DNA of 10,510 bases, from positions 1 through 10,510 of the forward strand of contig NZ_JACIYL010000066.1 in the NCBI RefSeq assembly GCF_014359955.1, read 5' to 3'. Positions 1 to 10,510 of this stretch are shown one piece after another. Origin of the DNA: Thermogutta sp. (GTDB lineage Bacteria; Planctomycetota; Planctomycetia; Pirellulales; Thermoguttaceae). A model generated the notes under the pieces. That model did no database searches. It saw only the letters and a list, made by a program, of their open reading frames with translations, and was not told the origin of the DNA. Made by a program: the position numbers and the translations under genes. Position 1 is the first letter of the stretch; every line of letters starts with the position of its first letter.

Positions 1-281
1 AATTTTTCTTTCCATGTTTAAATTTTTTTAAATAATTATACAATCGACGGTGTAGAAATTAACCGGCACCTTCTTAGCCGCCGCTGCGGCGACTGAGCGG
101 GTGCCCAAAAAACTGGTTGGGCGTCTAGACAGCGCACAACTGGGTGCATCTATGGGCACATGTCTTGCCATATCTCTGCGCCAATTGTGCCAGACTTTTA
201 GTAGGAGGTCTGGTTATCGTCTGCGGCCATCCTGGGGCATGGCGGCCGTGGAGGCCGCTGTGCACCTGTGGAGACGGCACC
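1..281. other. AT-rich left edge and integrase leader without a gene
   Basis: No convincing gene is seen here. The first 60 bases are far more AT-rich than the rest of the window and contain TTTAAA at 17-22 and 27-32 and a TATACAAT at 37-44 that could serve as a -10 element. An inverted repeat GCCCAA/TTGGGC lies at 103-108 and 117-122. The leader further holds two hairpins: 189-195 with 208-214 (7 pairs, one G-U), whose loop carries AGGAGG at 203-208, and 242-247 with 253-258 (6 pairs, 5-nt loop), 23 nt upstream of the integrase ATG. These could affect integrase expression or mark integrase arm sites or the attachment region; none of that can be proved without the flanking host sequence. Confidence 0.4.
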
Positions 282-1151
282 ATGACGATCTCTCAATTTC
301 TTCCACAGTATCTTGTCTTACGTGTCTCTCACTCGAAGCAGTACCTTGCCAATGTTCGGTTGTGCGTGTCACGCTTTGTCGAAGCAAATGGCGACATTTT
401 CTTGGGCGACATCACGGAGGAGCATATTGGGCGATTCTTGGCTGTCGTAGGCAAAACCGCACGCTCGTCCTATACACTACGAGGTCATCTAGCAATGCTG
501 AAGGCTATCTTGAACGAGGCCTTCAACATTGGCCTGCTGCCTCGGCTCCCCCGATTCCCGCGTATCCGCTTGGAGAAACGAGATCCGGATGCTTGGACAA
601 TCGAAGAAGTGCAAAAGCTCTTCAAACATGTGTGGGCCCTTCCAGGATCAGTAGGAGTTATTCCCGCCCGTCTGTGGTGGGGGTCGCTTCTTCTGACGAA
701 CTACTACACCGGGCTAAGATTGAGTGCTCTTCTGAATGTGACCTGGTTTCAGATCGACTTTCGCGGTTTTTTGCGGGCCTATACGAACAAAAACAAGCGG
801 GAACAGACATTTGCCCTTCCTCAAGACCTTGTTCAGCTCCTTCGCGAGATTCAGTATCCGCCTCGCGAGAAGGTTTGGGAACACCCATACCGGGACCCAA
901 AGTGGCCATGCAAGGCCCTTCGGCGGATCGTGGACCGGGCCGGCATTCCAGCTCCCAAGAATCTGCACGGGCAACTGTTCCAAAAGATGCGGCGCACCTG
1001 CATCACCTGGACCGCCGTGAACGATCTGAACATGGCCACCAGGGTGGCGGGCCATGCTTCGCCGGATACAACCATCAAGCACTACGTGGATCCGCGGATG
1101 CTGGGGGCTATCACGCCCATCGTTCCGCGGATCAACATAAAGACGGCATAA
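282..1151 (+). CDS. int: Phage tyrosine recombinase (integrase), 289 aa
   Basis: Site-specific recombinase expected to catalyse integration and excision of the phage genome. The N-terminal part (about residues 1-95) looks like a SAM-like core-binding domain. The C-terminal catalytic domain shows R146 in TGLRLSALLNVTW, a beta-hairpin lysine (K170 or K172), R237 in KMRRT, H258 in GHAS and the probable nucleophile Y268 in TIKHYVDP. The usual His of the HxxR box is Gln here (Q234-K-M-R237), which is seen in some active family members but is worth noting. I chose ATG 282 because GGAGA lies 6-10 nt upstream and the protein then begins at the normal core-binding domain; an in-frame start at 144 would add 46 residues of unlike composition. 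The gene is followed by a nested hairpin and a strong terminator, so it is probably a single-gene unit. Its position at the end of the phage genome fits an attachment site close by on the left. Confidence 0.93.
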   Translation: MTISQFLPQYLVLRVSHSKQYLANVRLCVSRFVEANGDIFLGDITEEHIGRFLAVVGKTARSSYTLRGHLAMLKAILNEAFNIGLLPRLPRFPRIRLEKRDPDAWTIEEVQKLFKHVWALPGSVGVIPARLWWGSLLLTNYYTGLRLSALLNVTWFQIDFRGFLRAYTNKNKREQTFALPQDLVQLLREIQYPPREKVWEHPYRDPKWPCKALRRIVDRAGIPAPKNLHGQLFQKMRRTCITWTAVNDLNMATRVAGHASPDTTIKHYVDPRMLGAITPIVPRINIKTA

Positions 1152-1168
1152 GGACGCACACAACCACG

Positions 1169-1208
1169 CGGTCCCTGTTTAGGCGTGGGCGGTCCACGCC
1201 GGGGACCG
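1169..1208 (+). other. Nested inverted repeat after integrase
   Basis: Outer arms CGGTCCC (1169-1175) and GGGACCG (1202-1208) enclose a perfect inner 7-bp hairpin GGCGTGG (1182-1188) / CCACGCC (1194-1200) with loop GCGGT. It lies 18 nt after the integrase stop codon and upstream of the terminator at 1220. It may protect the transcript 3' end, or be a DNA site for recombination; function is unknown. The apical nonamer GGGCGGTCC recurs in a hairpin at 3935-3953. Confidence 0.5.
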
Positions 1209-1219
1209 ACCGTGCCCCG

Positions 1220-1280
1220 CTCCGGCCGCGGTCATGTTCGCTGCCCGCCACACCGTCCCCGCCGCGGCCGGAGTTTTTTT
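1220..1280 (+). terminator. Rho-independent terminator of the integrase
   Basis: A perfect 12-bp GC-rich stem, CTCCGGCCGCGG (1220-1231) with its complement at 1262-1273, is followed at once by seven T (1274-1280). The loop is long (30 nt). It stands 68 nt after the integrase stop and acts on rightward transcription. The reverse direction has no T tract, so it should not terminate the opposing gene at 1284-1691. Confidence 0.85.
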
Positions 1281-1283
1281 GTA

Positions 1284-1691
1284 TCACGTGCCTTTCAGCC
1301 AGCGTTGGAATCGCCACCACCAGAACGATGGACCGGAGAGCGGTTTTCCTTCCCTGGCCCGCTGTCCGAGGGCAAAACCTGTCTCCGTCACGAGGAACCA
1401 TCCATCCTTGAGGAGGCGGAACAGACCACGCTGGCAAAGCCGCTCGAAGGCCTCCAGGTAGCGGGCGATGGCAGCCGGATCCGAGTGACTGTCGATCAAG
1501 ATCGACCCGGCATGAAAGACGCAGAATTGGTCGTCGATTTCGATACAGACTTGACGGTCTTCCTGGATGGCGGCCAAGAGCTCGATCTCGGCCCGGGAAA
1601 GCCTCGCCAAGCGGGGCCTGAGTGTGCGGAAGGTCCAGACGGCTTGAGCACACAGTTCGGCAGCTTTCATGGCGACTCCTACGTAATCCAT
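1284..1691 (-). CDS. Unrecognised phage protein with winged-helix-like C-terminal half, 135 aa
   Basis: I do not recognise the family. This is the only leftward gene. ATG 1691 is preceded by AAAGGAG at good spacing; a second in-frame ATG at residue 8 also has a GGAG and cannot be excluded. Residues 31-45 (LSRAEIELLAAIQED) form a likely helix, and residues 72-110 follow a helix, then GLFRLLKDGWFLVTETG, then helix, the pattern of a winged-helix wing (recognition helix, hairpin, 'T..G'). The C-terminus is tryptophan-rich (WWWRFQRW, residues 124-131). No membrane segment is seen. Its location between integrase and early genes, divergent from recT, is that of a lysogeny or immunity regulator, and it may bind the palindrome at 1770-1779; this is inference. 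A long rightward reading frame covers the same DNA, but two rightward terminators lie within it and favour the leftward gene. Confidence 0.62.
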   Translation of the reverse strand: MDYVGVAMKAAELCAQAVWTFRTLRPRLARLSRAEIELLAAIQEDRQVCIEIDDQFCVFHAGSILIDSHSDPAAIARYLEAFERLCQRGLFRLLKDGWFLVTETGFALGQRAREGKPLSGPSFWWWRFQRWLKGT

Positions 1692-1706
1692 CTCGCTGGC
1701 TCCTTT

Positions 1707-1761
1707 CTCTTGGGGCCGTCGGTGGGCGGCGAAACTCTGCCGGCGGCCCTGGGAGTTTTTT
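1707..1761 (+). terminator. Rightward terminator upstream of recT
   Basis: Arms 1707-1722 and 1740-1755 pair over 16 positions, four of them G-U wobbles, with a 17-nt loop, and the stem is followed directly by six T (1756-1761). On the rightward strand this is a Rho-independent terminator that would isolate recT from upstream transcription or serve as an antitermination point. On the leftward strand the same hairpin sits in the 5' leader of the 1284-1691 gene, ending next to its ribosome binding site. Confidence 0.6.
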
Positions 1762-1769
1762 CCATCAAG

Positions 1770-1779
1770 CAGCATGCTG
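1770..1779. promoter_or_regulatory. Possible operator palindrome in divergent control region
   Basis: CAGCATGCTG is a perfect 10-bp palindrome in the gap between the leftward gene (start 1691) and recT (start 1814). It coincides with the predicted leftward transcription start, where a bound repressor would block initiation. Only one copy is seen. Confidence 0.3.
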
Positions 1780-1785
1780 AGCGTC

Positions 1786-1812
1786 ATTTTAGCACCGACT
1801 GGAGGTTTCCAA
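1786..1812 (-). promoter_or_regulatory. Predicted leftward promoter with extended -10
   Basis: Read on the minus strand there is TTGGAA (1812-1807), a 15-bp spacer, and TGCTAAAAT (1794-1786), an extended -10 with five of six matches to TATAAT. Transcription would start near 1779 and drive the 1284-1691 gene with a leader of about 88 nt. The -35 element overlaps the segment between the recT ribosome binding site (GGAGG, 1801-1805) and its ATG. No comparable rightward promoter is obvious for recT. Confidence 0.45.
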
Positions 1813-1813
1813 G

Positions 1814-2695
1814 ATGTCCCGACTAACTGGACTGGAGCAAGAGCTAAGACGGAATCTGGCGCGCTTCGGGATTGCCGCCAAAGGGCGGGTAGACGTGCGG
1901 GCCGTGGTGGAAGGTGTCCTCAACCTGGTAAGCCAGACGCCGCGGCTTCAGGAGTGCACGACAACCAGTATCGTGGAGGCCGTCCACAAGGCGGTTTCCC
2001 TGGGGCTTGACCCGACTGGCACGACGGACGAGGGGTACATCACGCCCCGCAAGCGCCACGCGGTCTTTGTGCCGGGATACCGGGGACTCTTGAAAATCGC
2101 CTACGAAAACCCGCGGGTTGGGCTGATCGAGGCCCACGTGGTGCGGGAGCGGGATCATTTCGAACTTCGATACGGCGACCCGGAGGGGCACGTGGTGGAT
2201 CACCGGCCGCGGCTGAACGTGGCTGAGGGAGAGCCCAATGTTCCCATCGGGGCCTACGCCATTTGCTGGTGGCGGGACTGTCCCCAGCCCCTAGTGGAAT
2301 GGATGACCGCCGAGGAAATCGAGGCTAACGCGGAACGGAGCGGAAATAGAGACGAGGACTCGCCCTGGCAGACCGACTGGCCGGAGATGGCCCGCAAGAC
2401 GGTCCTCAAGAGACTTCTCAAGTACATCCCGCTGGGGCCGCAACTGGGGGTCATTCTGCGGGAACGGGACGACGATGGTTCCCTGGAGGAGACGGAAACC
2501 TCCGATGTGGGCGTTGCCGACGGCGATTCTGGGCCGAATTACGACGCCCTCATCGGGCAGGCGGCGACTCTGGAGGCCATCGACCAGGTAATCGCCAGTC
2601 TGAAGGCCGACGAGGCTTTGGATTCTGAGGAAAAGACCCGGCTTTTCAATCTGGCGGTGAAAAAGAAGCGGGAGCTGCGTGCTGTCAGTGTCTGA
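1814..2695 (+). CDS. recT: RecT-family single-strand annealing protein, 293 aa
   Basis: Phage recombinase that coats single-stranded DNA and anneals complementary strands during phage recombination and repair of replication intermediates. Family hallmarks are SLGLDPTG (62-69) leading into GYITPRK (74-80), then VFVPGYRGLLKIA (84-96), matching the RecT core 'GY.GL..L', the segment VVRERDHFELRYG (109-121), and SPWQTDWPEMARKTVLKRL (183-201), the characteristic 'W...W..M..KT..KRL' motif, followed by YIPL. Residues 215-255 are an acidic linker, and the tail to 293 is helical and charged. Length is normal. GGAGG at 1801-1805 lies 8 nt before the ATG. The gene is 53 nt from csrA, so the two are probably co-transcribed. 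No partner exonuclease (RecE, YqaJ or lambda exonuclease type) and no SSB gene is adjacent, which is unusual but not rare. Confidence 0.93.
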   Translation: MSRLTGLEQELRRNLARFGIAAKGRVDVRAVVEGVLNLVSQTPRLQECTTTSIVEAVHKAVSLGLDPTGTTDEGYITPRKRHAVFVPGYRGLLKIAYENPRVGLIEAHVVRERDHFELRYGDPEGHVVDHRPRLNVAEGEPNVPIGAYAICWWRDCPQPLVEWMTAEEIEANAERSGNRDEDSPWQTDWPEMARKTVLKRLLKYIPLGPQLGVILRERDDDGSLEETETSDVGVADGDSGPNYDALIGQAATLEAIDQVIASLKADEALDSEEKTRLFNLAVKKKRELRAVSV

Positions 2696-2752
2696 TGGAA
2701 GGCGCAGGGAGTGAGAACGAGGAGTCTGGGACTGCAAAGGAGTGAAGGATGT
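2696..2752 (+). promoter_or_regulatory. csrA leader with six GGA motifs (possible CsrA autoregulation)
   Basis: The 53-nt gap between recT and csrA holds GGA at 2697, 2708, 2721, 2729, 2739 and 2747. The fifth is within the Shine-Dalgarno sequence AAAGGAG, and the last overlaps the start codon as AAGGATGT (2745-2752), which matches the ARGGAUGU core of the high-affinity CsrA RNA ligand. CsrA dimers usually repress by binding several GGA sites across a ribosome binding site, so feedback control of this phage csrA is a reasonable inference. Confidence 0.55.
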
Positions 2753-2961
2753 TGGTGCTATCACGGAAGCTGAATGAAAAGATCATTCTGGCCAACGGTA
2801 TCACGCTGACAGTGTTAGCCGTTAAAGGGAAAAACGTCCGAATTGGGATTGACGCCCCAAGGGATGTGGTCATCTTGCGGGAGGAACTTCTTCAGAAGAG
2901 GAGACCGCAATGCGAAGCTACTTCTCTGTCGAATGGGCACAAGACGGACGGAGAAAAATAG
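2749..2961 (+). CDS. csrA: CsrA/RsmA-family RNA-binding translational regulator, 70 aa
   Basis: Small homodimeric RNA-binding protein that binds GGA motifs in mRNA leaders and changes translation or stability. The whole fold is present: MLVLSRK (L4, R6, K7) as strand 1, KIILANGITLTVLAVKGKNVRIGIDAP through residue 37, and VVILREEL with R44, the key RNA-contacting arginine, in place. The core ends near residue 52. Residues 53-70 are a charged tail, longer than in short family members, encoded in DNA shared with the next gene, which starts at 2910 inside csrA. AAGGAG lies 7 nt before ATG 2749. Located between recT and a cassette of small phage genes, it could regulate phage messages, host metabolism or motility, or its own mRNA; the target is not shown by the sequence. 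Confidence 0.95.
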   Translation: MLVLSRKLNEKIILANGITLTVLAVKGKNVRIGIDAPRDVVILREELLQKRRPQCEATSLSNGHKTDGEK

Positions 2962-3182
2962 CCGTCGGCAACACGCAGTTTGAGTTTGCACTCTTTCTCG
3001 ATGAAGAGAAACTGCGTGACCCCCACGCCCGGGAAACCGTAACCGCGTGGGCCCTCGGGCTCTTCAGTTGTCCTGGGGCGAATATTTCCAAGAAAACGAT
3101 CGACGATCTGTTCGACTACTTAGAGGAAAACTGGCCGCTCCAGCGGCCGCTATTTCCGAGGCCGAAGCTGCGGTTTTGGTGA
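2910..3182 (+). CDS. Small unrecognised phage protein, 90 aa
   Basis: I do not recognise this protein. The start is well supported: GAGGAG at 2898-2903 stands 6 nt before ATG 2910, although the gene begins 52 nt inside csrA in another frame. The sequence is soluble-looking and mildly acidic in the middle (DEEKLRDPHARETV, residues 31-44; KKTIDDLFDYLEENW, residues 61-75) with aromatic residues throughout and a Pro/Arg-rich end (PLFPRPKLRFW). The N-terminus MRSYFSVEWAQDGRRKIAVG could be two beta strands. Overlap with csrA implies translational coupling, so it is probably expressed in the same early operon. It is followed without a gap by the next small gene. Confidence 0.6.
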   Translation: MRSYFSVEWAQDGRRKIAVGNTQFEFALFLDEEKLRDPHARETVTAWALGLFSCPGANISKKTIDDLFDYLEENWPLQRPLFPRPKLRFW

Positions 3183-3208
3183 CATTTGCGGAGCACAGGA
3201 GCGACGCC

Positions 3209-3493
3209 GTGATAGATCGTGATTTCATTACCACAATCTTTCTGGTCCCCAGGAACTACCGCATAGAGCGAGAGATAGCAAGCTTAGCCAGGAAGCGCTG
3301 GCCTGATGGCGTCGTCCGTCCTGTGTGGACTGTCGGACGGACACCCAGTGGCCGTTTCAGGCTTTATTCAAGTGTGGCCGTGTTCGCCAACGGCGAGCCT
3401 GTAGCCCTGGCATACCTCACCAGGGCAGGGGTTGTTAAATGGCACGCCCTATGGCCAACTGAGGTTTGGGAAGAAGAAACATTGTGCCAATAG
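3209..3493 (+). CDS. Small unrecognised protein with W-rich C-terminal motif, 94 aa
   Basis: Family unknown. GTG 3209 is preferred because AGGAG (3197-3201) lies 7 nt upstream; an in-frame GTG at 3179 overlaps the previous stop codon but has no good ribosome binding site. The N-terminal half (IDRDFITTIFLVPRNYRIEREIASLARKRW) looks like a strand plus an amphipathic helix. The C-terminal 43 residues run FRLYSSVAVFANGEPVALAY followed by RAGVVKW, then LWPTEVWEEE. This second part resembles the 55-aa product of 3741-3908 (common pattern F-R, F-x2-G, A-x-A, R-x-G-x-V-x-W, WP-x-E-x-W-x-E). The two are therefore paralogous domains. The pattern suggests a small beta domain; function cannot be inferred. 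Confidence 0.6.
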   Translation: MIDRDFITTIFLVPRNYRIEREIASLARKRWPDGVVRPVWTVGRTPSGRFRLYSSVAVFANGEPVALAYLTRAGVVKWHALWPTEVWEEETLCQ

Positions 3494-3495
3494 AT

Positions 3496-3711
3496 ATGTT
3501 GATCACGCTGAGGTATTTGTTGTTTCATGCTCCGGTTCTGCTAGTCGCGTTCGGCGTAATACTGAAGAGCGATTTGCTTTTGTATTGTGGAGCAACGTCA
3601 TTCGTGATTAAAGAAATTGTGACTGACGTCTATGCGATAGTGAGAGAGATAGCAAGAAATGGAGCGGAATGGAAGCATGGCAATGTGCAGAGCGAGACCC
3701 GCCATTCTTAA
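3496..3711 (+). CDS. Small predicted membrane protein, 71 aa
   Basis: Unrecognised. ATG 3496 follows the preceding stop codon by 2 nt, so translation is probably coupled; no strong ribosome binding site is visible. An alternative TTG start at 3466 would add 10 residues. Hydrophobic stretches at about residues 4-23 (TLRYLLFHAPVLLVAFGVIL) and 27-42 (LLLYCGATSFVIKEIV) could be two membrane helices, followed by an amphipathic, charged cytoplasmic tail (to residue 71). The DNA is more AT-rich than the recT and rep genes around the cassette. Small two-helix phage membrane proteins act in host takeover, exclusion or lysis, but nothing here points to one of these. Confidence 0.5.
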   Translation: MLITLRYLLFHAPVLLVAFGVILKSDLLLYCGATSFVIKEIVTDVYAIVREIARNGAEWKHGNVQSETRHS

Positions 3712-3740
3712 CTTTAGCAGTGAACGACAAGGAGCGTGTA

Positions 3741-3908
3741 ATGAAGGCAAATATGCCGCAGCAGCGACGGAAATGCATAAGGGAAACGTTCCGCTTTTCA
3801 ATCGGTTCGTTTAAAGATGGCAAATTGATTGCATATGCAAAAGTCAATCGGCGTGGTGCTGTGTCCTGGTTTAAGCCATGGCCAGGCGAAACCTGGCAGG
3901 AGGCATGA
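3741..3908 (+). CDS. 55-aa paralogue of the W-rich domain of the 3209-3493 product
   Basis: Unrecognised, but about residues 17-54 align with the C-terminal part of the protein at 3209-3493: FRF, then SFKDGKLIAYA, NRRGAVSW, KPWPGETWQE, against FRL, VFANGEPVALA, TRAGVVKW, ALWPTEVWEE, with a 2-residue gap. About 15 of 40 positions are identical by eye. AAGGAG (3729-3734) lies 6 nt before ATG 3741, which fixes the start; an in-frame extension to 3669 has no comparable site. The N-terminus (MKANMPQQRRKCIRE) is basic. This is either a minimal stand-alone version of the domain or the remnant of a duplicated longer gene. It ends 71 nt before the replication initiator start, and two strong hairpins fill that gap. 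Confidence 0.6.
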   Translation: MKANMPQQRRKCIRETFRFSIGSFKDGKLIAYAKVNRRGAVSWFKPWPGETWQEA

Positions 3909-3913
3909 GGTGT

Positions 3914-3953
3914 GTCCCGTCCCGGAGGCGGGACTCGCCGGGCGGTCCGGCGA
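3914..3953 (+). other. Two back-to-back hairpins upstream of the replication gene
   Basis: GTCCCG (3919-3924) and CGGGAC (3929-3934) form a 6-bp stem with loop GAGG; an overlapping GTCCCG at 3914-3919 offers an alternative pairing. Immediately after comes a perfect 7-bp hairpin TCGCCGG (3935-3941) / CCGGCGA (3947-3953) with loop GCGGT. No T tract follows, so this is not a normal terminator. Possible roles are control of replication-gene expression or RNA processing. The first loop carries a GGA next to the stem, a weak CsrA-site candidate. Confidence 0.5.
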
Positions 3954-3979
3954 CAGGGATTTGCGGAGTGAAGCTCAGG

Positions 3980-4993
3980 ATGGCTGGTGACTTCATTTTG
4001 TTACGGACAACGCTGCCGACATGCAGAGAAGTCCTCATCTTAGCGGACTTGTGTCGGTGCGAGAGCGACCTGATCTTAGGTCGGCTGGCGCGATTCTGGA
4101 TCTGGGCAGATGCGGAGACCAGCAACGGCGACTTGTGCGGTGTGTCGATCGACATGCTTTCCAAAACGTTGCACATCCCCAAGTCGTTCTTTACGGGGCT
4201 GGTCTCTGTAGGCTGGCTTGAGGTCCACGAGTGGGGCCTGAGAATTCCGAACTGGGACAGGTGGTTCTCGGACTCATCAAAGGCACGGTACGGCGAGATC
4301 ATACGCAAGAGGCTTCAACGCAGTCGGGATGCCCCAAACGGCGAGTTCCGGACAAATGTCCGGACAATTTCCGGACAATGTCCGGACAATTTCCGGACTA
4401 AAGAAGAAAGAAGAGAGAGTAAAGAAGAAAGGAGAAAGAAGACAGAAGGAAGATCTAATCCTTCGGTAACACTGGAATGTAATTTACAACCTTCTGGTGT
4501 TGGAAAATCTTTGTCTACTGGGGAGACACAAAGCTGTTTTGAGTCTTCCGGTAATGGGAAGCCCATGGTAGACGAAGATTGCGGCGAGACGAAATGTTGC
4601 GGCGAGTTCGGGCAAGCCGACTCGCCGCCGTCTCCGGCGGAAGATAACCGCGACGTGCCAGAGGAAGTCGCACGCCTCACATTCCCATGTGATGGGCCGA
4701 CCAAAGAATGGAAGGTCACGCGGGACGTGTTTGTTTCGCTTCAGGAGGCCTTCTCCACAGTGGACGTGGTGGCCGAGATCCGCAGGGCCTACGAGTGGAT
4801 TCTCGCGAATCCAGACCGCCGGAAGACCGCGAAAGGGATGCGTCGGTTCCTGTTCAACTGGCTGAGCCGTGCTGTGGACAGCCGATCCACGTCACGAGCG
4901 CCGCCGAGTCCACTACTGAGCGACCTGGAAAGGAGGAATCTGGAAGCCACGAAGCTCTGGCTTGCCCAAAAGGAGCAGCAGCATGCCAACTGA
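3980..4993 (+). CDS. Phage replication initiator (lambda O-like organisation), 337 aa
   Basis: Probable origin-binding replisome organiser. The N-terminal domain (residues 1-115) has the pattern of phage replication proteins with a winged helix: MAGDFILLRTTL, then ILGRLARFWIWADAETSNG (32-50), VSVGWLEV (75-82), LRIPNWDRW (87-95) and the basic KARYGEIIRKRLQRSR (101-116). A low-complexity linker (116-235) includes a Lys/Glu/Arg run (141-158). The C-terminal domain (240-300) has EIRRAYEWILANPDRRKTAKGMRRFLFNWLSRA in two adjoining segments, typical of domains that contact the helicase loader. ATG 3980 is chosen because homologous proteins begin at MAGDW-type sequences; GGAG at 3965 is somewhat distant, and an in-frame GTG at 3968 is the alternative. 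The linker is encoded by the iteron and purine tract described separately, as lambda ori lies in gene O. The next gene overlaps its end by 11 nt. Confidence 0.82.
   Translation: MAGDFILLRTTLPTCREVLILADLCRCESDLILGRLARFWIWADAETSNGDLCGVSIDMLSKTLHIPKSFFTGLVSVGWLEVHEWGLRIPNWDRWFSDSSKARYGEIIRKRLQRSRDAPNGEFRTNVRTISGQCPDNFRTKEERRESKEERRKKTEGRSNPSVTLECNLQPSGVGKSLSTGETQSCFESSGNGKPMVDEDCGETKCCGEFGQADSPPSPAEDNRDVPEEVARLTFPCDGPTKEWKVTRDVFVSLQEAFSTVDVVAEIRRAYEWILANPDRRKTAKGMRRFLFNWLSRAVDSRSTSRAPPSPLLSDLERRNLEATKLWLAQKEQQHAN
4343..4458. other. Predicted phage replication origin (iterons plus AT-rich purine tract)
   Basis: The five iterons are followed directly by a 54-nt stretch (4400-4453) with only two pyrimidines on the plus strand and about 35% GC, against roughly 55-60% around it; the next 100 bases are also fairly AT-rich. 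Iterons inside the initiator gene, in the linker between its DNA-binding and C-terminal domains, with an asymmetric AT-rich unwinding tract on their right, is the arrangement of the lambda origin in gene O. The similarity is of architecture, not of sequence. Confidence 0.75.
4347..4398 (+). repeat. Five TCCGGAC iterons with 11-bp spacing
   Basis: TCCGGAC occurs at 4347, 4359, 4370, 4381 and 4392, spacings of 12, 11, 11 and 11 bp. From 4357 the sequence is two tandem 22-bp units (4357-4378, 4379-4400) that differ at one position. Each contains the 10-bp palindrome TGTCCGGACA and a TTTCCGGAC half. The 11-bp period is not a multiple of three, so the protein is not periodic here, which argues for selection on DNA. 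One helical turn per repeat places binding sites on one face of the helix. Confidence 0.9.
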
Positions 4994-5621
4994 TGCGGAA
5001 CGCTTTGCCATTGTGATGAATGCCCTGGGGGCTGCCTTCAATCGGCCGATCACCCCCGCGGTCCTCACAGCCTACGAGATGGGCCTGGATGGGCTGGCCA
5101 TTGAGGAAATCGAGGCCGCCGCAAAGCGGGCCCTCAAGACGTGCAAGTTCATGCCGACCCCAGCCGAGCTGCGAGAGCTCGCTGGGGGCCTCAAGCCGGA
5201 AGACCAGGCCGTGCTGGCCTGGCAGGCCGCCGTCCGGGCCGTCGAGGACTATGGTTGGTACCGCAGCGTGCAATTCGAGGACGCGGCCATTACGGCCACA
5301 ATCCGCAGCCTGGGCGGTTGGCAGCGGTTTTGCGAGCGGTGTGGCGGCGAGGAGGAGAAGTGGCTCCGGCAGGAGTTTCTCAGGACCTACGCGGCTTACT
5401 GCAAGGTCGGGGTCAGCCCGGAAGCGGCACTGCCGCTAGTCGGAGAATTCGAGCGGCAGAACACGCTGTTGGGCTACCGCAACAGGCCTGAGGACCGGCC
5501 AGCCCTCATCCCGTGCGAGTATGTACCGCCAGTTCTACGACGGATTGGGCGTTCGGAGGCAGACCGAGAGGCTCTCGCGATAGCCAACGAGCTCGCAAAC
5601 TCGATGCGAGTCCCAGACTGA
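4983..5621 (+). CDS. Probable helicase loader / replication partner protein, 212 aa
   Basis: Likely to deliver the host replicative helicase to the origin complex made by the upstream initiator. The N-terminal 68 residues (DAERFAIVMNALGAAF, then YEMGLDGLAIEEIEAAAKRAL, then FMPTPAELREL at 57-67) follow the pattern of phage G39P-type loaders: helical, with an alternating 'length of gene product, A..A......K..P(T/S)..E' end. Residues 78-140 (AWQAAVRAVEDYGWYRSVQF, AITATIRSLGGWQRFC, FLRTYAAYC) recall a domain of unknown function common in phage replication modules. AGGAG sits 8-12 nt before ATG 4983, and the start lies within the end of the initiator gene (ATGCCAACTGA), so the two are translationally coupled like O and P of lambdoid phages. 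No ATP-binding motif is present, which excludes a DnaC-type loader. The assignment rests on pattern and position. Confidence 0.6.
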   Translation: MPTDAERFAIVMNALGAAFNRPITPAVLTAYEMGLDGLAIEEIEAAAKRALKTCKFMPTPAELRELAGGLKPEDQAVLAWQAAVRAVEDYGWYRSVQFEDAAITATIRSLGGWQRFCERCGGEEEKWLRQEFLRTYAAYCKVGVSPEAALPLVGEFERQNTLLGYRNRPEDRPALIPCEYVPPVLRRIGRSEADREALAIANELANSMRVPD

Positions 5622-5635
5622 AAGTGGGGGCGACA

Positions 5636-5875
5636 ATGGGTAGCGACGAGAAGCCCCGCTGCTGTAATTGCGGGCGTGCCACGTGTGACCTGTACTATCG
5701 CAACCCAGGCACGGGATTTCCATGTAAAGACCCATGGTGTGCCGAGTGCTACGAGCGAATGTGGGCGCACTACTGGCGCGCCTTCTGGACAGACCGCGGC
5801 AATGTGATCGTTGCATGGGAACGCGTGACGCAAAACAAGAAATACCGCATCCGGAAAAGACGGATAAAGCCGTAG
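5636..5875 (+). CDS. Small cysteine-rich, probably zinc-binding protein, 79 aa
   Basis: Unrecognised phage protein. Cysteines at residues 9, 10, 12, 17, 30, 35 and 38 are arranged as CCNCGRATC and CKDPWCAECY, a spacing that could bind one or two zinc ions. The C-terminal half has several tryptophans and ends in a strongly basic run (KKYRIRKRRIKP, residues 68-79) suited to nucleic acid contact. ATG 5636 is preceded by a G-rich stretch (GGGGG, 5626-5630) and not a standard ribosome binding site; an upstream extension of the frame has different composition and overlaps the previous gene. The gene lies 14 nt after the loader gene and 2 nt before rusA, so it belongs to the replication/recombination operon. 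Confidence 0.65.
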   Translation: MGSDEKPRCCNCGRATCDLYYRNPGTGFPCKDPWCAECYERMWAHYWRAFWTDRGNVIVAWERVTQNKKYRIRKRRIKP

Positions 5876-5877
5876 AG

Positions 5878-6252
5878 ATGGAATCAACCAAACAAGCCGT
5901 TAGCATCGATCTCCCCTGGCCGCCGACGGCGAATCGCTACTGGCGTCGTGTCAATGGTCGAACGATCCTATCCCGGGCGGCTCGCCAATTCCGAAAGAGA
6001 GTCAGGGATTTATGGTTCGTGAAAAAGTATGTTTTAGGAAAGGACGGATTCGCTGACACGGAGGTGCGGGTGGAAATCGACGTGTATCCACCCGACCGTC
6101 GCCGACGAGACATCGACAATGTCGTTAAGGCGGTCCTGGATGCCCTCGTGGATGTTAACATCATCGATGATGATTCTCAGGTGAAGGAACTGCGTGTGGT
6201 ACGGCATGAGTGCATTCCTGGAGGCCAGGTGAGGGTACGAATCACGGAATGA
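5878..6252 (+). CDS. rusA: RusA-family Holliday junction resolvase, 124 aa
   Basis: Dimeric endonuclease that cuts four-way junctions, here resolving recombination and replication intermediates before packaging. N-terminal LPWPPTANRYWRR (12-24) is the RusA entry motif. DRRRRDIDNVVKAVLDAL (73-90) contains D78, D80 and K84, and IIDDDSQV (95-102) supplies D99; these correspond by alignment to D70, D72, K76 and D91 of the E. coli enzyme, so the active site is complete. Length is normal. ATG 5878 follows the stop codon of the cysteine-rich gene by 2 nt without a strong ribosome binding site, so translational coupling is likely. It ends in an ATGA overlap with the next gene. Works in the same pathway as RecT. 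Confidence 0.93.
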   Translation: MESTKQAVSIDLPWPPTANRYWRRVNGRTILSRAARQFRKRVRDLWFVKKYVLGKDGFADTEVRVEIDVYPPDRRRRDIDNVVKAVLDALVDVNIIDDDSQVKELRVVRHECIPGGQVRVRITE

Positions 6253-6572
6253 CAACCCCCCATCCTCTCGATTCGTTCAAACTCGTCGCGTTGGACGAAC
6301 TATCCCCGCTGTCACGGCGGTCATTGCTGAACATCCTGGGGATTCGCGGTGCTGAGACCCTGCCGGAAAATACGCTTTCAGATCTGTGTATCTGCGAAGT
6401 GGCCGATCCGGATCAGTTGATCCCGGCTTTGAAATGGGCGGAAGAGCGTTGCGGGGCGCGGATCCCCCTCGTCTTTTACCCTGGTCCACCGGTCCGCATT
6501 CTCCTCACCCTGCGTGACCTGGGCCCCCTCGCGGCCTGGTATTTCCGGGCCGTTGCTGCGGTTCATGGGTGA
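6249..6572 (+). CDS. Unrecognised phage protein, 107 aa
   Basis: Family not recognised. ATG 6249 overlaps the rusA stop (ATGA), and this coupling fixes the start; no independent strong ribosome binding site is seen. The sequence alternates predicted helices and strands: ELSPLSRRSLLNILGIRGAE (17-36), LSDLCICEVAD (43-53), DQLIPALKWAEERC (55-68), RIPLVFYPGP (71-80) and a C-terminal helix LGPLAAWYFRAVAAVHG (91-107). The order strand-helix-strand with 'PLVFYP' gives a faint Rossmann or receiver-like impression, but no phosphoacceptor or nucleotide motif is present. It is the last gene of the replication transcript, as a promoter is predicted after it. Confidence 0.6.
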   Translation: MTTPHPLDSFKLVALDELSPLSRRSLLNILGIRGAETLPENTLSDLCICEVADPDQLIPALKWAEERCGARIPLVFYPGPPVRILLTLRDLGPLAAWYFRAVAAVHG

Positions 6573-6599
6573 GTTTGTTCCAACCTGCTCACAAGCGCG

Positions 6600-6617
6600 T
6601 GGTACACTGACTGTATG
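6600..6617 (+). promoter_or_regulatory. Predicted extended -10 promoter for a leaderless message
   Basis: TGGTACACT (6600-6608) fits an extended -10 element (TGn followed by TAnnnT). The ATG of the HTH gene begins 6 nt after it, at the expected transcription start, and no Shine-Dalgarno sequence precedes the ATG. A TTGTTC at 6575-6580 is too far (22 bp) to act as a standard -35. This would start a separate transcript for the HTH-to-terminase genes. Confidence 0.4.
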
Positions 6618-7091
6618 AAAGGACGGCGGATCACTCAAGCGAAACGGCAACTGGTGATCACGTTGCACGATCAGGGCATGAACATCACGGAGATTGCCCT
6701 GGCGACCGGGGTGCCGAAAAGTTCGGTGGCCCGCATCTGCCGTACTGAGGAAGACCGTCTGCCCGACGAGAAGAAGCCGCTGGGACGGTGCCCCCGGTGT
6801 GGCAGGCTGGTGCGCTTGCCCTGCTATGCTTGCTGGTTGGAAACGGCTCCGGAGAGCCGCAAGCGGGCCTGGCGGGCAGCATGGAGAAAATTGGAGAAAC
6901 GCGCCATGGACCTTGTGAAGGAAATCCAGGAACTGAAACAGGCCATCCAGGACGCTCTCGAGGACGGGCGGATCACACTCCGCGAGGCGATCGTCATCGC
7001 CCGCGAGGCGGCGGATGTGGCCGCCATCCTCCTGCCGTTGATCCTCGGCAAGACGGCTGCCATGGAGGCGGAGTCCAAGGAAAAAGAATGA
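6615..7091 (+). CDS. HTH and zinc-ribbon protein with helical C-terminal domain, 158 aa
   Basis: Probable DNA-binding regulator, perhaps of the genes to its right. Residues 5-43 form a resolvase/homeodomain-like helix-turn-helix (KRQLVITLHDQGMNITEIAL then ATGVPKSSVARICR). Residues 59-73 hold a CPRC...CYAC pair (C59, C62, C70, C73), a zinc ribbon. Residues 80-97 are basic and helical. From M98 the sequence changes to an amphipathic helical segment (DLVKEIQELKQAIQDALEDG, ITLREAIVIAREAADVAAILLPLIL) that resembles small stand-alone phage proteins. That internal ATG at 6906 has its own GGAG 9 nt upstream (6893-6896), so a second 61-aa product from the same frame is possible. Alternatively it is a fused domain. 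It starts directly at a predicted leaderless promoter. Confidence 0.75.
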   Translation: MKGRRITQAKRQLVITLHDQGMNITEIALATGVPKSSVARICRTEEDRLPDEKKPLGRCPRCGRLVRLPCYACWLETAPESRKRAWRAAWRKLEKRAMDLVKEIQELKQAIQDALEDGRITLREAIVIAREAADVAAILLPLILGKTAAMEAESKEKE

Positions 7092-7114
7092 CCCGATAGG
7101 TGAGGACCGCGCTG

Positions 7115-7870
7115 ATGAGAGCCGCGATACTAGGGATCGTGTTGTCGTTAGTTCCAGCCTGGCTCTGGGCGGGGGAGCTCCAATTCCAGGCGGGCGGGGG
7201 TGACCAGCTCACGGTCAAGGCCAAAGCGAACCAGCAAAAGTGGCTGGTGCTCAACGAGAGGATCGTCGTGGCGGCCGTCGTCGATGGTCGCCTTGTCGTT
7301 GAGGACTTTAACTGGCCGCCCGGACCACAGCCGATACCTCCTAACCCTGAACCCGGCCCCCAACCCCAGCCGCAACCGGTTCCTGGGCCGAAGACTGTCT
7401 TGTGGATCGAGGAGTCGTCAGCGCGGACGCCGTCGCAGGCTGCCGCGGTGGTGGATAAAGCCATCCGAGACGCCCTGGCGGCGGCCCGGTGGACGCTCCG
7501 TGTCGTTGACGTAGATGTGGTGGACGAAACCGGGAAGCCACCCGCCGATCTGGCCGGTTACCTGGACGCGGCCCGCCAGGCGGGAGTGCCGCGGGTCTTC
7601 ATCCTCCAGGATGGACGTGAACTTTATGCCGGAGCTGCTCCTCCCGATCGCTCCTCGTTCATAGCCCTCCTCCGTCGTTATGGCCTGCCGGTAGGGGGAC
7701 CCGCTGAACAGTCCGGGTCCCCCGCCGGGTCTCGTCCTCAGGAAGTGAGCCCTGTAAAAGAAGATGCGACCGAGCACGAAGAGGAGACACAACCCATGTT
7801 GAACGGAACCTGTCCGACAGGGCAGTGCCCGGTGCCAACAGTCCCCATGCGGAGGTGGAGACTCAGATGA
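7115..7870 (+). CDS. Secreted proline-rich protein with thioredoxin-fold-like domain, 251 aa
   Basis: Predicted exported protein. Residues 1-19 form a signal peptide (MRAAILGIVLSLVPAWLWA, cleavage before G20). Residues 20-66 look like a small beta domain, 67-93 is a proline/glutamine linker (PPGPQPIPPNPEPGPQPQP), and 94-190 alternates strands and helices ending GVPRVFILQDGRELYAG and LLRRYG, as in the second half of thioredoxin-like folds. The redox CxxC is absent, so it is not an oxidoreductase of the usual kind. Residues 195-227 are a polar linker, and the tail (228-251) is MLNGTCPTGQCPVPTVP plus a basic end, seen in some planctomycete secreted proteins. ATG 7115 is chosen for GAGG at 7102-7105 and for placing the signal peptide at the N-terminus; GTG 7100 would add five residues. 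It overlaps the peptidase gene (ATGA). Function unknown. Confidence 0.65.
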   Translation: MRAAILGIVLSLVPAWLWAGELQFQAGGGDQLTVKAKANQQKWLVLNERIVVAAVVDGRLVVEDFNWPPGPQPIPPNPEPGPQPQPQPVPGPKTVLWIEESSARTPSQAAAVVDKAIRDALAAARWTLRVVDVDVVDETGKPPADLAGYLDAARQAGVPRVFILQDGRELYAGAAPPDRSSFIALLRRYGLPVGGPAEQSGSPAGSRPQEVSPVKEDATEHEEETQPMLNGTCPTGQCPVPTVPMRRWRLR

Positions 7871-8661
7871 GCGACTTGACCATTCTGATCGACGGGAAGC
7901 AGTATCACCTGGGCTGTAAACCAAGACTACTCCATCCCGGGGCGGTTTATCCAGTCTTGGGAGCTGATCCTGATCGTCCGGATATCAAGCTGATCCCTCG
8001 GGAGCAGTGGGTGGAGGTTGACTTCTCTCACCTGGTCCCGGAGATTCTGGATCAGGACGGGCAAGGAGCCTGCAATGCATTCGCCTCTGTGCAGGCTCTC
8101 CACGTTGTGCGAGCGGAAGCCGGTTTACCCTACGTGAAACTCTCACCTGGGAACTTGTACGGCCGCATCAACGGCGGCGTCGATGCAGGATCGACTCTCT
8201 CTGACGCGATCATCACGCTTGAGAAAGAGGGCGTCTGCACGGCTCAGACTGTCCCAGAATTGCAGTGGCGACAGCGATATTGGCCACCGACGTGGAGAGA
8301 AGAGGCGAAGAAGTTCCGTATCCTTGAAGCCTGGGACTGCCCCAGTTTCGACCACTTAGCCTCGGCCCTGCTGTTAGGGTTCCCGGTGAACCTCGGGATA
8401 CTCGTGGGTTGGAACTTCCGCGTCGGATCTGACGGCTGGCTGGCCGATTACCGCGGCGGTGGTGGGGGGCACGCGATGTGTGGCGTGGGGCTTCTCTATC
8501 ACCGGGACCGAAAAACATGGGGCATCAAGGTTGCCAATTCATGGGGAAAAGATTGGGGACAGGACGGCTTTGCCGTTGTGCCGGAGAGTTATTTCAAGAG
8601 TACGCCGTTCACGGACGGCTGGGCGGTGCGGGGGTGTGTGGATCCGTCGGGTGAGTGGTAA
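7867..8661 (+). CDS. Papain-family (C1A) cysteine peptidase, 264 aa
   Basis: Predicted active cysteine protease. The catalytic set is complete: oxyanion Gln (Q63) and nucleophile C69 in LDQDGQGACNAFASVQAL, H202 in GGGGGHAMCGVG and N224 in KVANSWGKDWGQDGF, the papain 'NSWG..WG..G' block. S93-P94-G-N-L-Y and the region 105-125 also match the C1 fold. There is no signal peptide and no papain-type prodomain: only about 60 residues precede the active site, so it is probably a cytoplasmic or virion-associated, non-secreted form. GGAGG/GGAG lies 7-15 nt before ATG 7867, which overlaps the stop of the secreted protein gene. Possible roles include processing of a phage or host protein, virion maturation or lysis; none is shown. 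Such peptidases are uncommon in phage packaging modules. Confidence 0.88.
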   Translation: MSDLTILIDGKQYHLGCKPRLLHPGAVYPVLGADPDRPDIKLIPREQWVEVDFSHLVPEILDQDGQGACNAFASVQALHVVRAEAGLPYVKLSPGNLYGRINGGVDAGSTLSDAIITLEKEGVCTAQTVPELQWRQRYWPPTWREEAKKFRILEAWDCPSFDHLASALLLGFPVNLGILVGWNFRVGSDGWLADYRGGGGGHAMCGVGLLYHRDRKTWGIKVANSWGKDWGQDGFAVVPESYFKSTPFTDGWAVRGCVDPSGEW

Positions 8662-8679
8662 AGCATCGGGAGGCGAAAC

Positions 8680-8928
8680 GTGACCGACGACCGCTGGGAG
8701 AGACTTGAGCAACGGATTGCCGACATCCAATCCGGAATAGCGGAAATCCGGACTATTTACGAGACGCACAGCAGGGCAATTGAAAGGATTGAACGGACAC
8801 TGTTCGGCAATGGAAATGCCGGACTATGCACCAAGGTTTCGGCCATTTTGTGGATGAGTTCGGCGATTGCCGGGTTCGTGGCCGTGCTATTGGCCCAGGC
8901 CATCGCCTCCTGGGTGGGTCGTGGCTGA
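8680..8928 (+). CDS. Holin/XhlA-like coiled-coil membrane protein, 82 aa
   Basis: Small membrane protein resembling the XhlA (hemolysin XhlA/phage holin-associated) type. Residues 5-42 form an amphipathic coiled coil (RLEQRIADIQSGIAEIRTIY and on to AIERIERTLF), and 53-78 is one membrane helix (VSAILWMSSAIAGFVAVLLAQAIASW) with a short basic end. XhlA-type proteins take part in host lysis with a holin and an endolysin. No recognised endolysin is in this window. GTG 8680 is used because GGGAGG (8668-8673) is 6 nt upstream. It overlaps the small terminase start (TGATG), so the two are co-translated. It could instead be a membrane anchor for another phage protein. Confidence 0.65.
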   Translation: MTDDRWERLEQRIADIQSGIAEIRTIYETHSRAIERIERTLFGNGNAGLCTKVSAILWMSSAIAGFVAVLLAQAIASWVGRG

Positions 8929-9377
8929 TGGCTAAAAAGGCGGTCTCAAGAAACCAAGCCAGAAAGACACAATCGCCACCGGAGCCGGCGCGTGATCTGG
9001 GCGGGCTTTCGCCCCGCCAGCGGGCCTTTTTGCAGGCTTATGAGCAATGCCCATCCGTAGCCGAGGCGGCCCGCCAAGCCAAGATCCACCGTTCCACGCA
9101 CTACCAGTGGTTGAAGGACGAGGCTTACCGACGTCACTTCCAGGAGATTCAGGCCACTCTGGGCGACGTCCTTCTGGATGAGGCCGTGACGCGGGCCCTG
9201 GCAGGGAGCGACCAGCTCCTCCAGTTCCTCCTGCGGGGGCTGAAACCGGAGATCTTCAACCGTCAGCAGGTAGAGGTCCTTCCAGCGAGTGGTTTTGTGG
9301 GAATGGCGGTCTGGCAACTGTCCGATGAGCAGCTCGAAGAAGAGATCCAGCGATGCCGTCGGGCCCTCGAACCTTGA
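8928..9377 (+). CDS. terS: Terminase small subunit, 149 aa
   Basis: DNA-recognition subunit of the packaging motor that binds the pac or cos site and recruits the large subunit. Residues 24-45 (GLSPRQRAFLQAYEQCPSVA) and the HTH at about 43-62 (SVAEAARQAKIHRSTHYQWLKDEAYRRHF) are the family pattern: 'A...AGv.rsT.Y.WL.d..F'. Residues 75-105 are helical, and the C-terminal 40 residues, ending QLEEEIQRCRRALEP, are the likely oligomerisation/large-subunit contact region. ATG 8928 overlaps the previous stop as TGATG; the initial MAKKAVSRNQARKTQ is basic. The large-subunit gene begins 53 nt before the end of this gene in another frame. The packaging site, often within or near terS, cannot be placed. 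Confidence 0.85.
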   Translation: MAKKAVSRNQARKTQSPPEPARDLGGLSPRQRAFLQAYEQCPSVAEAARQAKIHRSTHYQWLKDEAYRRHFQEIQATLGDVLLDEAVTRALAGSDQLLQFLLRGLKPEIFNRQQVEVLPASGFVGMAVWQLSDEQLEEEIQRCRRALEP

Positions 9378-10510
9378 TGACCGTCGCCGTCTGGCCCTTC
9401 TCCTCCGCGAAAAAGCCATTCGTCACGCCCGCCGCGAGCTGCTGGCTTTCACCCTCTTCACGAAACCGGATTACCAGGTTAACTGGCACCATCGACTTCT
9501 AGCCGCGAAACTCCAGCAACTAGAGGCAGGGCAGATCAAAAGACTGATTGTCTGTCTGCCGCCCCAGCACGGAAAATCCGAGCTGGTCTGCCGCCGCTTT
9601 CCGGCCTGGGTCTTAGGCCGCAATCCTGCCACACGGATCATCGCCTGCACGCATACGGCCACCCTGGCTGAGGCCCACAGCCGGGATGTGCAGCGGATCA
9701 TGGATTCGCCGGATTATCGGGAAGTGTTTCCCGGTGTCCTGCTTCCCGGCCGGGAATCACGCCTGCCCGGCCGCTTTAAGCGGACGGACGACTACTGGGA
9801 ACTGGCCCAGGGAGGGTATTTTCGGGCCGCCGGTGTGGGCGGGGCGATCACCGGCCTCCGCTTCGATCTGGGGATCATCGACGACCCGGTGAAGAGTCGC
9901 GAGGAGGCGGAGAGCCCGGTCTACAGACAGCGGATCTGGGAGTGGTTCACCAGTGATTTTTTCACCCGCCGGGCCCGCGACGCGCGGATCGTCGTGTGCA
10001 TGACCCGCTGGCACAAGGATGACCTGGTGGGACGGCTTCTCAAGCAAGCCGAGGCCGAGGGGGAAGCGTGGAATCTGGTGGAACTCCCGGCCCTCTGCCG
10101 CGAGGACCGCAAACACCCCCAGGACCCCCGCAGTCCTGGGCAGGCCCTCTGGCCCGGCTTTCTCGATGAGGATGCCCTGGAGAAGACGCGACGGCAGGAC
10201 CTGCGGGCCTTCGCCGCCCTCTATCAGCAGGATCCGGCGGAAGCGGCCGGCACCGAGTGGCCCGCGAGTTACTTCGGCGACTGGCTCTGGCTGGACGAAT
10301 CCCGCTGGCCGCCCCCCGTGGACCACTGGATCATGGCCATCGATCCCAGTCGGGGGCGGGCCGATCTGCCCGGGGACGACACGGCGATTGTGGTCCTGGG
10401 TGTGGCCCCCGACCGGGCCCTCCTCTACCTGGATGCCGAGATCGAGCCGCGGACCCCCGAGGAGACCATCCGCCGGGCGCTGCAGCTTTACGAGACGTAT
10501 CGCCCGCGGT
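9325..10510 (+). CDS. terL: Terminase large subunit (ATPase-nuclease), N-terminal 395 aa, runs off window
   Basis: Motor and nuclease of DNA packaging; the gene has no stop before the window end. Walker A is CLPPQHGKSE (K84), the usual terminase variant. Walker B is DLGIIDDPV (D181 to V189, with D186, D187). The coupling motif is VVCMTRWHKDDLVGRLL (223-239). Residues 293-316 carry LRAFAALYQQDPAEAAGTEW, the hinge found before the nuclease domain, which begins with MAIDPSRGRADLPGDDTAIV (338-356; D340 and D351/D352 probable metal ligands). ATG 9325 is the only plausible start in frame; it lies inside terS (53-nt overlap) and has no clear ribosome binding site, so it is probably coupled to terS translation. 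The family is the HK97/Terminase_6-like group. Confidence 0.93.
   Translation, partial: MSSSKKRSSDAVGPSNLDDRRRLALLLREKAIRHARRELLAFTLFTKPDYQVNWHHRLLAAKLQQLEAGQIKRLIVCLPPQHGKSELVCRRFPAWVLGRNPATRIIACTHTATLAEAHSRDVQRIMDSPDYREVFPGVLLPGRESRLPGRFKRTDDYWELAQGGYFRAAGVGGAITGLRFDLGIIDDPVKSREEAESPVYRQRIWEWFTSDFFTRRARDARIVVCMTRWHKDDLVGRLLKQAEAEGEAWNLVELPALCREDRKHPQDPRSPGQALWPGFLDEDALEKTRRQDLRAFAALYQQDPAEAAGTEWPASYFGDWLWLDESRWPPPVDHWIMAIDPSRGRADLPGDDTAIVVLGVAPDRALLYLDAEIEPRTPEETIRRALQLYETYRPR

Follow-up and report, generated by a model that had tools for sequence, protein, structure and literature searches.

Does a run of short repeats in the middle of a replication initiator gene mark the origin at which the product of that gene acts? 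Phage origins have rarely been mapped outside a few models, and the question is raised here by a 10,510-nucleotide (nt) stretch of Thermogutta sp. DNA (contig NZ_JACIYL010000066.1, positions 1 to 10,510 of the forward strand), which we call the window and in which a prophage-type initiator gene carries five TCCGGAC repeats, or iterons, followed by a purine tract. We conclude, with a probability of roughly 87%, that array and tract form the origin at which a temperate phage starts replication, located within the gene for its own initiator, bound by the N-terminal domain of the initiator and entered by the helicase with the assistance of a loader. An earlier note on this DNA had likened the layout to that of lambda O and its origin. 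The features on which the argument turns are as follows.

4347..4398, plus strand: five TCCGGAC iterons (4347-4353, 4359-4365, 4370-4376, 4381-4387 and 4392-4398), at spacings of 12, 11, 11 and 11 base pairs (bp)
4400-4453, plus strand: purine tract of 54 nt, presumed unwinding element, 35.2% guanine plus cytosine (GC), with 7-nt periodicity
3980..4993, plus strand: replication initiator gene, 337 amino acids, matching phrog_2509 and phrog_9474
about 3980..4330, plus strand: N-terminal domain (residues 1-117), presumed to bind the iterons, confidently predicted in the model
4355..4627, plus strand: stretch coding for a disordered linker (residues 126-216), nearly all residues with a predicted local distance difference test score (pLDDT) below 50
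4661..4894, plus strand: C-terminal domain (residues 228-305), presumed primosome contact, confident in the model

An iteron array and a purine tract within the linker-coding region

The repeat array is real and goes beyond what synonymous codon choice would be expected to produce, as the earlier note had argued from its period. When the codons of the gene were shuffled synonymously, with protein and codon pool kept, five copies of TCCGGAC fell within 70 nt in 3 of 20,000 shuffles, whereas a test that accepts whichever 6-mer is best in a 160-nt linker segment found five copies in 0.2% of 500 shuffles (p = 0.002). The observed periodicity, for which only periods not divisible by 3 were taken in and the best was 11, was equalled in 0 of 300. 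The plus strand of the window holds one further TCCGGAC only, at 8747, and TCCGGACAATNTCCGGAC occurs in the whole genome at this locus only, in three overlapping places (backward-read control, 0); a blastn search with the array against phage records gave no match. Inside the array, TGTCCGGACA (at 4357 and 4379) alternates with TTTCCGGAC (at 4368 and 4390), and these may be paired binding sites. Two 22-bp units had been thought to differ at one base; 4355-4376 and 4377-4398 are in fact identical, and it is 4366-4387, read in the overlapping register, that stands at 91%.

The tract of 54 purine-rich nucleotides and about 35% GC had been described correctly. It starts directly after the last iteron, is broken by two non-purines (T4420 and C4443), and lies in a window with an overall GC content of 59.3%. 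Nearest-neighbour energies put the lowest stability of any 100 nt in the window at 4396-4495, and for 40- and 56-nt stretches the tract region comes second in instability, behind the very start of the window. The tandem score of the tract is best at a lag of 7 (p = 0.003). Array and tract both sit in the part of the gene that codes for the disordered linker between the two confidently predicted domains, a position that the earlier note had recognized, although it had assigned 3980-4993, the whole gene, to the N-terminal domain.

In the mechanism that we propose, the N-terminal domain of the initiator would bind the TCCGGAC iterons mid-gene and the bound array would open the adjoining purine tract, whereupon the C-terminal domain and the DUF6475 protein encoded next, which may be a loader of the G39P or lambda P kind, would bring in the host helicase. 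We infer binding, opening and helicase loading, and likewise the exact start of synthesis.

Arrays of other words at the same place in relatives

We compared 36 genes: 22 from genomes of the same order, the initiator gene of the window itself, 3 viral relatives, 8 phages of record and 2 found by the TCCGGAC pattern. The same-order set comprised 296 genomes, 23 with a match, and its 26 family matches came down to 22 when L059 (the window itself), L071 (a copy of L051), L072 (another part of the L064 gene) and L067 (a fragment) were dropped; L005 was left out as a near-copy of L004. Phages of record were gathered with tblastn (43 records matched, 8 used), and L029, L034 and L038 were picked by the TCCGGAC pattern, L034 being counted among the viral relatives.

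Linker arrays were significant in the shuffle test in 19 of the 36 genes at 0.05 and in 15 at 0.01, compared with 1 of 34 for the control, the segment that comes next in each gene; as a positive control, the test picks up the lambda O iterons given in the record annotation (p = 0.004). Among the words are GCGGAC, GCGGAA, CTCCGC, CGGGAC, GGGACA, CGTTAC and CGTGAC, spaced mostly at 10-13 nt, and Salmonella phage epsilon15 has four copies of GCGGAC at the same place (p = 0.008). By eye, some of the non-significant relatives have two copies of a word ahead of a purine-rich stretch.

The closest N-terminal domains are found on two IMG/VR contigs, L004 (82%) and L006 (66%), each with four copies of TCCGGA at the same place, spaced 11 bp and 12 bp, respectively. 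Because the shared word codes for different peptides, SGQVSGQVSGQTSGL in L006 and FRTNVRTISGQCPDNFRT in the window, the DNA word has been kept while the peptide has changed. In L006 the spacing is 12 bp, against 11 bp in the window. Compared with L004 in 50-nt bins, the window reaches 92% identity at 4350-4399, against 60% and 58% in the flanking bins; over 4200-4299 the value is 94%.

A scan for a triple TCCGGAC pattern returned 23 stretches (reversed control, 0), 10 of which were compared with known families or with the window protein. BLASTP links L019 and L037, from the L004 and L005 contigs, to the window protein; six (L029, L031, L032, L033, L034 and L038) match initiator PHROGs; L021 has no initiator family match but is similar in the C-terminal domain; and L023 is a Mu F-like protein. 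TCCGGAC arrays are also present in initiator genes of another family, phrog_2562 (Lin1244-type; L031 11944-12897 and L033 198-1157), where the common word may reflect descent, exchange or convergence.

Arrays were also seen at other places. Upstream of the initiator gene, L004 has an extra TCCGGA array at 760-787 and L005 has a doubled one at 2082-2109 and 2206-2233, possibly operator or auxiliary sites. The part coding for the N-terminal domain holds an additional array, built of words of the linker kind, in epsilon15 (L040, nt 54-100), Rac ydaU (L041, nt 149-172), L047 (nt 150-194) and L064 (nt 138-179).

N-terminal domain and repeat are exchanged together

The genome of the window contains a second prophage-type initiator gene (L013 1009-1980), the product of which shares the C-terminal domain with the window protein (44% over 177 residues) but has no similarity to it in the N-terminal domain. 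The two loci are 82% identical in DNA across window positions 4796 to 5617, downstream gene included. The N-terminal domain of L013 belongs to another initiator family, phrog_5810 (E = 2e-10), and its repeat is a 15-bp tandem, AACGATAGAACGATA, in 4.6 copies. L004, in turn, keeps the N-terminal domain and the array, parts from the window at about 4426 and has an unrelated C-terminal part, and in metagenome proteins (P0002-P0004 and others) the same C-terminal domain stands behind still other N-termini.

On a tree of N-terminal domains, array classes, assigned by hand, are explained by 14 changes, whereas shuffling gives 21.3 on average and came as low in 0 of 200 cases; taken singly, TCCGGA and GTNACG cluster (0 of 500 shuffles as low). 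Therefore, N-terminal domain and word travel together broadly, and in part of the tree words change faster than clades. With the C-terminal domain and probable loader constant, the joint swaps pair initiators with their recognition words, and the recognition code of a large initiator family is therefore directly testable by binding assays.

A tandem pentamer in the tract

Tandem repeats in the tract, tested at lags 4, 5, 7 and 8, were significant in 22 of the 36 relatives, 19 of these at lag 5, and in 1 of 34 controls; with lambda O counted in, the totals are 22 of 37 and 1 of 35. Several other relatives have lag-6 tract repeats, which codons could explain, and the lambda O tract has no significant short tandem repeat (p = 0.37).

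An exact scan of viral contigs for (GAGAA)4 gave at least 120 stretches, of which 106 were usable after end-near or duplicate stretches were dropped; these come from the same family, are distinct by their upstream 100 nt only and are not independent. Among the matches listed, all 106 fall within open frames 150 codons or longer (median position 0.53), with phrog_9474 in 88 and phrog_2509 in 78 (E ≤ 1e-5). Repeats, defined as chains of three or more copies of a 5-mer spaced 9-15 nt within 120 nt, were present upstream in 84 and downstream in 7 of the 106 (shuffles expect 4.4). Their commonest spacing is 11-12 nt, and a median gap of 2 nt separates the last copy from the purine run. What is new is that a tandem pentamer often makes up the tract and that (GAGAA)4 scanning leads mostly to initiator genes with repeats just upstream.

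The pattern (GGAAA)4 failed as a negative control: 102 of its 116 stretches were usable, with repeats upstream in 48 and downstream in 9 (4.3 expected), and after the fact we read it as a second tract type, weaker than (GAGAA)4. For (GGACA)4 (23 stretches, 22 usable) there was no clear signal, with 8 upstream and 5 downstream, and none of the 5 usable (CTGAA)4 stretches, from 6 found, had upstream repeats.

DnaA-trios belong to bacterial origins. We raise, tentatively and with more doubt than confidence, the idea that the tract is a comparable second code and more than a stretch rich in AT. On this reading, tandem units of 5-7 nt, usually GAGAA, are confined to one strand; the series begins within a few nucleotides of the last iteron, is common to initiators with wholly different iterons and would act as a stepwise track on which initiator or loader engages one strand. 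It would then be a signature for finding intragenic phage origins without a known initiator or iteron and, if this is true, a 22-nt pattern locates origins in uncultured viruses.

The initiator gene and its neighbours

Profile matches identify the gene at 3980-4993 as a phage replication initiator. The phrog_2509 'replication initiation protein' profile aligns residues 1-158 with its positions 1-151 of 277 (E = 7.9e-27) and phrog_9474 matches at E = 1.6e-18, all within residues 1-161; these are the only two PHROG families to match the window protein at E ≤ 0.1, a threshold at which Pfam gave no family. A PDB profile search with the initiator family returned 0 matches, and scans of genome_contigs with the window protein and with the N-domain alignment found no relative. 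Against viral models, Foldseek gave 13 matches to the initiator model at E ≤ 0.001, mostly unnamed; a lambda O row is absent from its structural listings, which rules nothing out.

4986..5621, plus strand: DUF6475 gene, likely helicase loader, with structural rows to lambda P and SPP1 G39P

The best structural rows for the DUF6475 (PF20081) protein model are the helicase loaders lambda P, at a root-mean-square deviation of 8.7, and SPP1 G39P, which suggests helicase loading as a possible function; a PDB sequence search with this protein gave antibody-like matches only (E 0.09-1) and none to lambda P or G39P. Elsewhere, the prophage has a CsrA-type regulator gene (2749-2961; PF02599, E = 8.9e-21; phrog_9500) and, between the early genes and the small terminase-like gene, a papain-family cysteine protease gene (7825-8661; PF00112, E = 4.1e-9).

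Alternative explanations

The array might instead be an operator, bound by the initiator or a repressor for control of transcription and not for the start of replication, and the upstream TCCGGA arrays of L004 and L005 stand where an operator would be expected, so that the protein may regulate itself. However, the window has no TCCGGAC array upstream of its gene; its array is intragenic, with a melting-prone tract directly after it, and the same order recurs in many relatives, so that we regard an operator as unlikely. We give even less weight to a protein-level or slippage origin, in which low-complexity linker coding drifted into repeats. Disordered linkers such as the one predicted here do tolerate repeats, and L051 and Lagaffe pass the array test with repeats inside a low-complexity tract, but the periods of 11 and 5 rotate the reading frame and hence leave the peptide unrepeated, in L006 the same DNA word yields a different peptide, protein-preserving shuffles fail to give the array, and same-gene control segments reach 1 of 34. 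It would be equally surprising if the prophage element had decayed and its array no longer functioned: the genome is an assembly of 1,117 contigs, yet no stop interrupts the initiator frame, and the window also holds open integrase, RecT, RusA and small-terminase genes.

Several results do count against an origin embedded in the initiator gene. The earlier note had named homologous genes that lack the repeat yet replicate as evidence against it, and the first half of this applies here: 17 of 36 have no significant linker array by our test, several with only two or three copies. Among the 17 are L055, L058, L060 and L061, whose clade was labelled as lacking an array, and Rac ydaU (p = 0.10) and TL-2011b (p = 0.068). 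The count of genes with an array becomes 18 of 33 when the pattern-chosen L029, L034 and L038 are removed. On the tree, GCGGAN (142 of 500 shuffles as low) and GGGAC (500 of 500) are not clustered by themselves. For the fold of the N-terminal domain the evidence is weak, as nothing in the PDB matched the initiator model at E ≤ 0.001 by Foldseek, and RepA_N rows score no better than those of ribosomal S19e and CAP, with which they tie.

Comparison with known systems

In lambda, iterons lie mid-O with an adjoining AT-rich tract (record annotation; excerpts of PMC7466680). The window shares with it direct repeats midway through the initiator gene and, beside them, an AT-rich tract that is easily melted by the stability computed here. 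The next gene, whose product resembles helicase loaders by model, may reproduce the O-P gene order. As the earlier note had also stated, the proteins differ: BLASTP of the window protein against lambda O gives E = 3.7, and phrog_2509 and phrog_9474 are not among the 14 PHROG families of lambda O at E ≤ 0.01. Lambda O matches phrog_5810 (E = 1.2e-13), the family of the L013 N-terminal domain too. The lambda iterons are annotated as 18 bp, whereas the window has TCCGGAC at 11-bp spacing, and short, partly palindromic iterons are, together with the tandem tract, the variant features of its design. A lambda-like design is supported, and kinship to lambda O is not.

Nor is the origin-in-initiator design peculiar to lambda, because in the RepA_N plasmid pSK41 the origin likewise lies midway through rep (excerpts of PMC5703833). 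With the RepA_N plasmid initiators of pSK41 and pTZ2162 the window shares an array and tract inside the gene, a putative origin judging by sequence; by sequence, too, no RepA_N domain was found, with no Pfam family for the window protein (E ≤ 0.1) or for 26 relatives (E ≤ 0.01).

The phrog_2509 and phrog_9474 initiators epsilon15_p23, Rac YdaU and TL-2011b gp12 share with the window a homologous N-terminal domain, iteron-like linker words and a purine tract after them. Their words are GCGGAC or GTAACGC and not TCCGGAC, and their C-terminal parts differ, that of epsilon15 resembling DnaT (NCBIfam, E = 3.8e-17). An active origin, oriJ, has been ascribed to Rac (excerpts of PMC3945230) and may be a mapped origin in the initiator family of the window; the literature searched, mainly openly available, yielded no intragenic origin in this family and no pentamer tract. 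An origin inside the initiator gene, with a dispensable linker, is established for lambda-type phages and pSK41 (excerpts of PMC7466680 and PMC5703833), and we therefore count the window as a new member of this design, in a family for which we found no mapped origin in the literature. Because related phages repeat the two-part layout with different words, hidden origins of this kind are findable by sequence alone.
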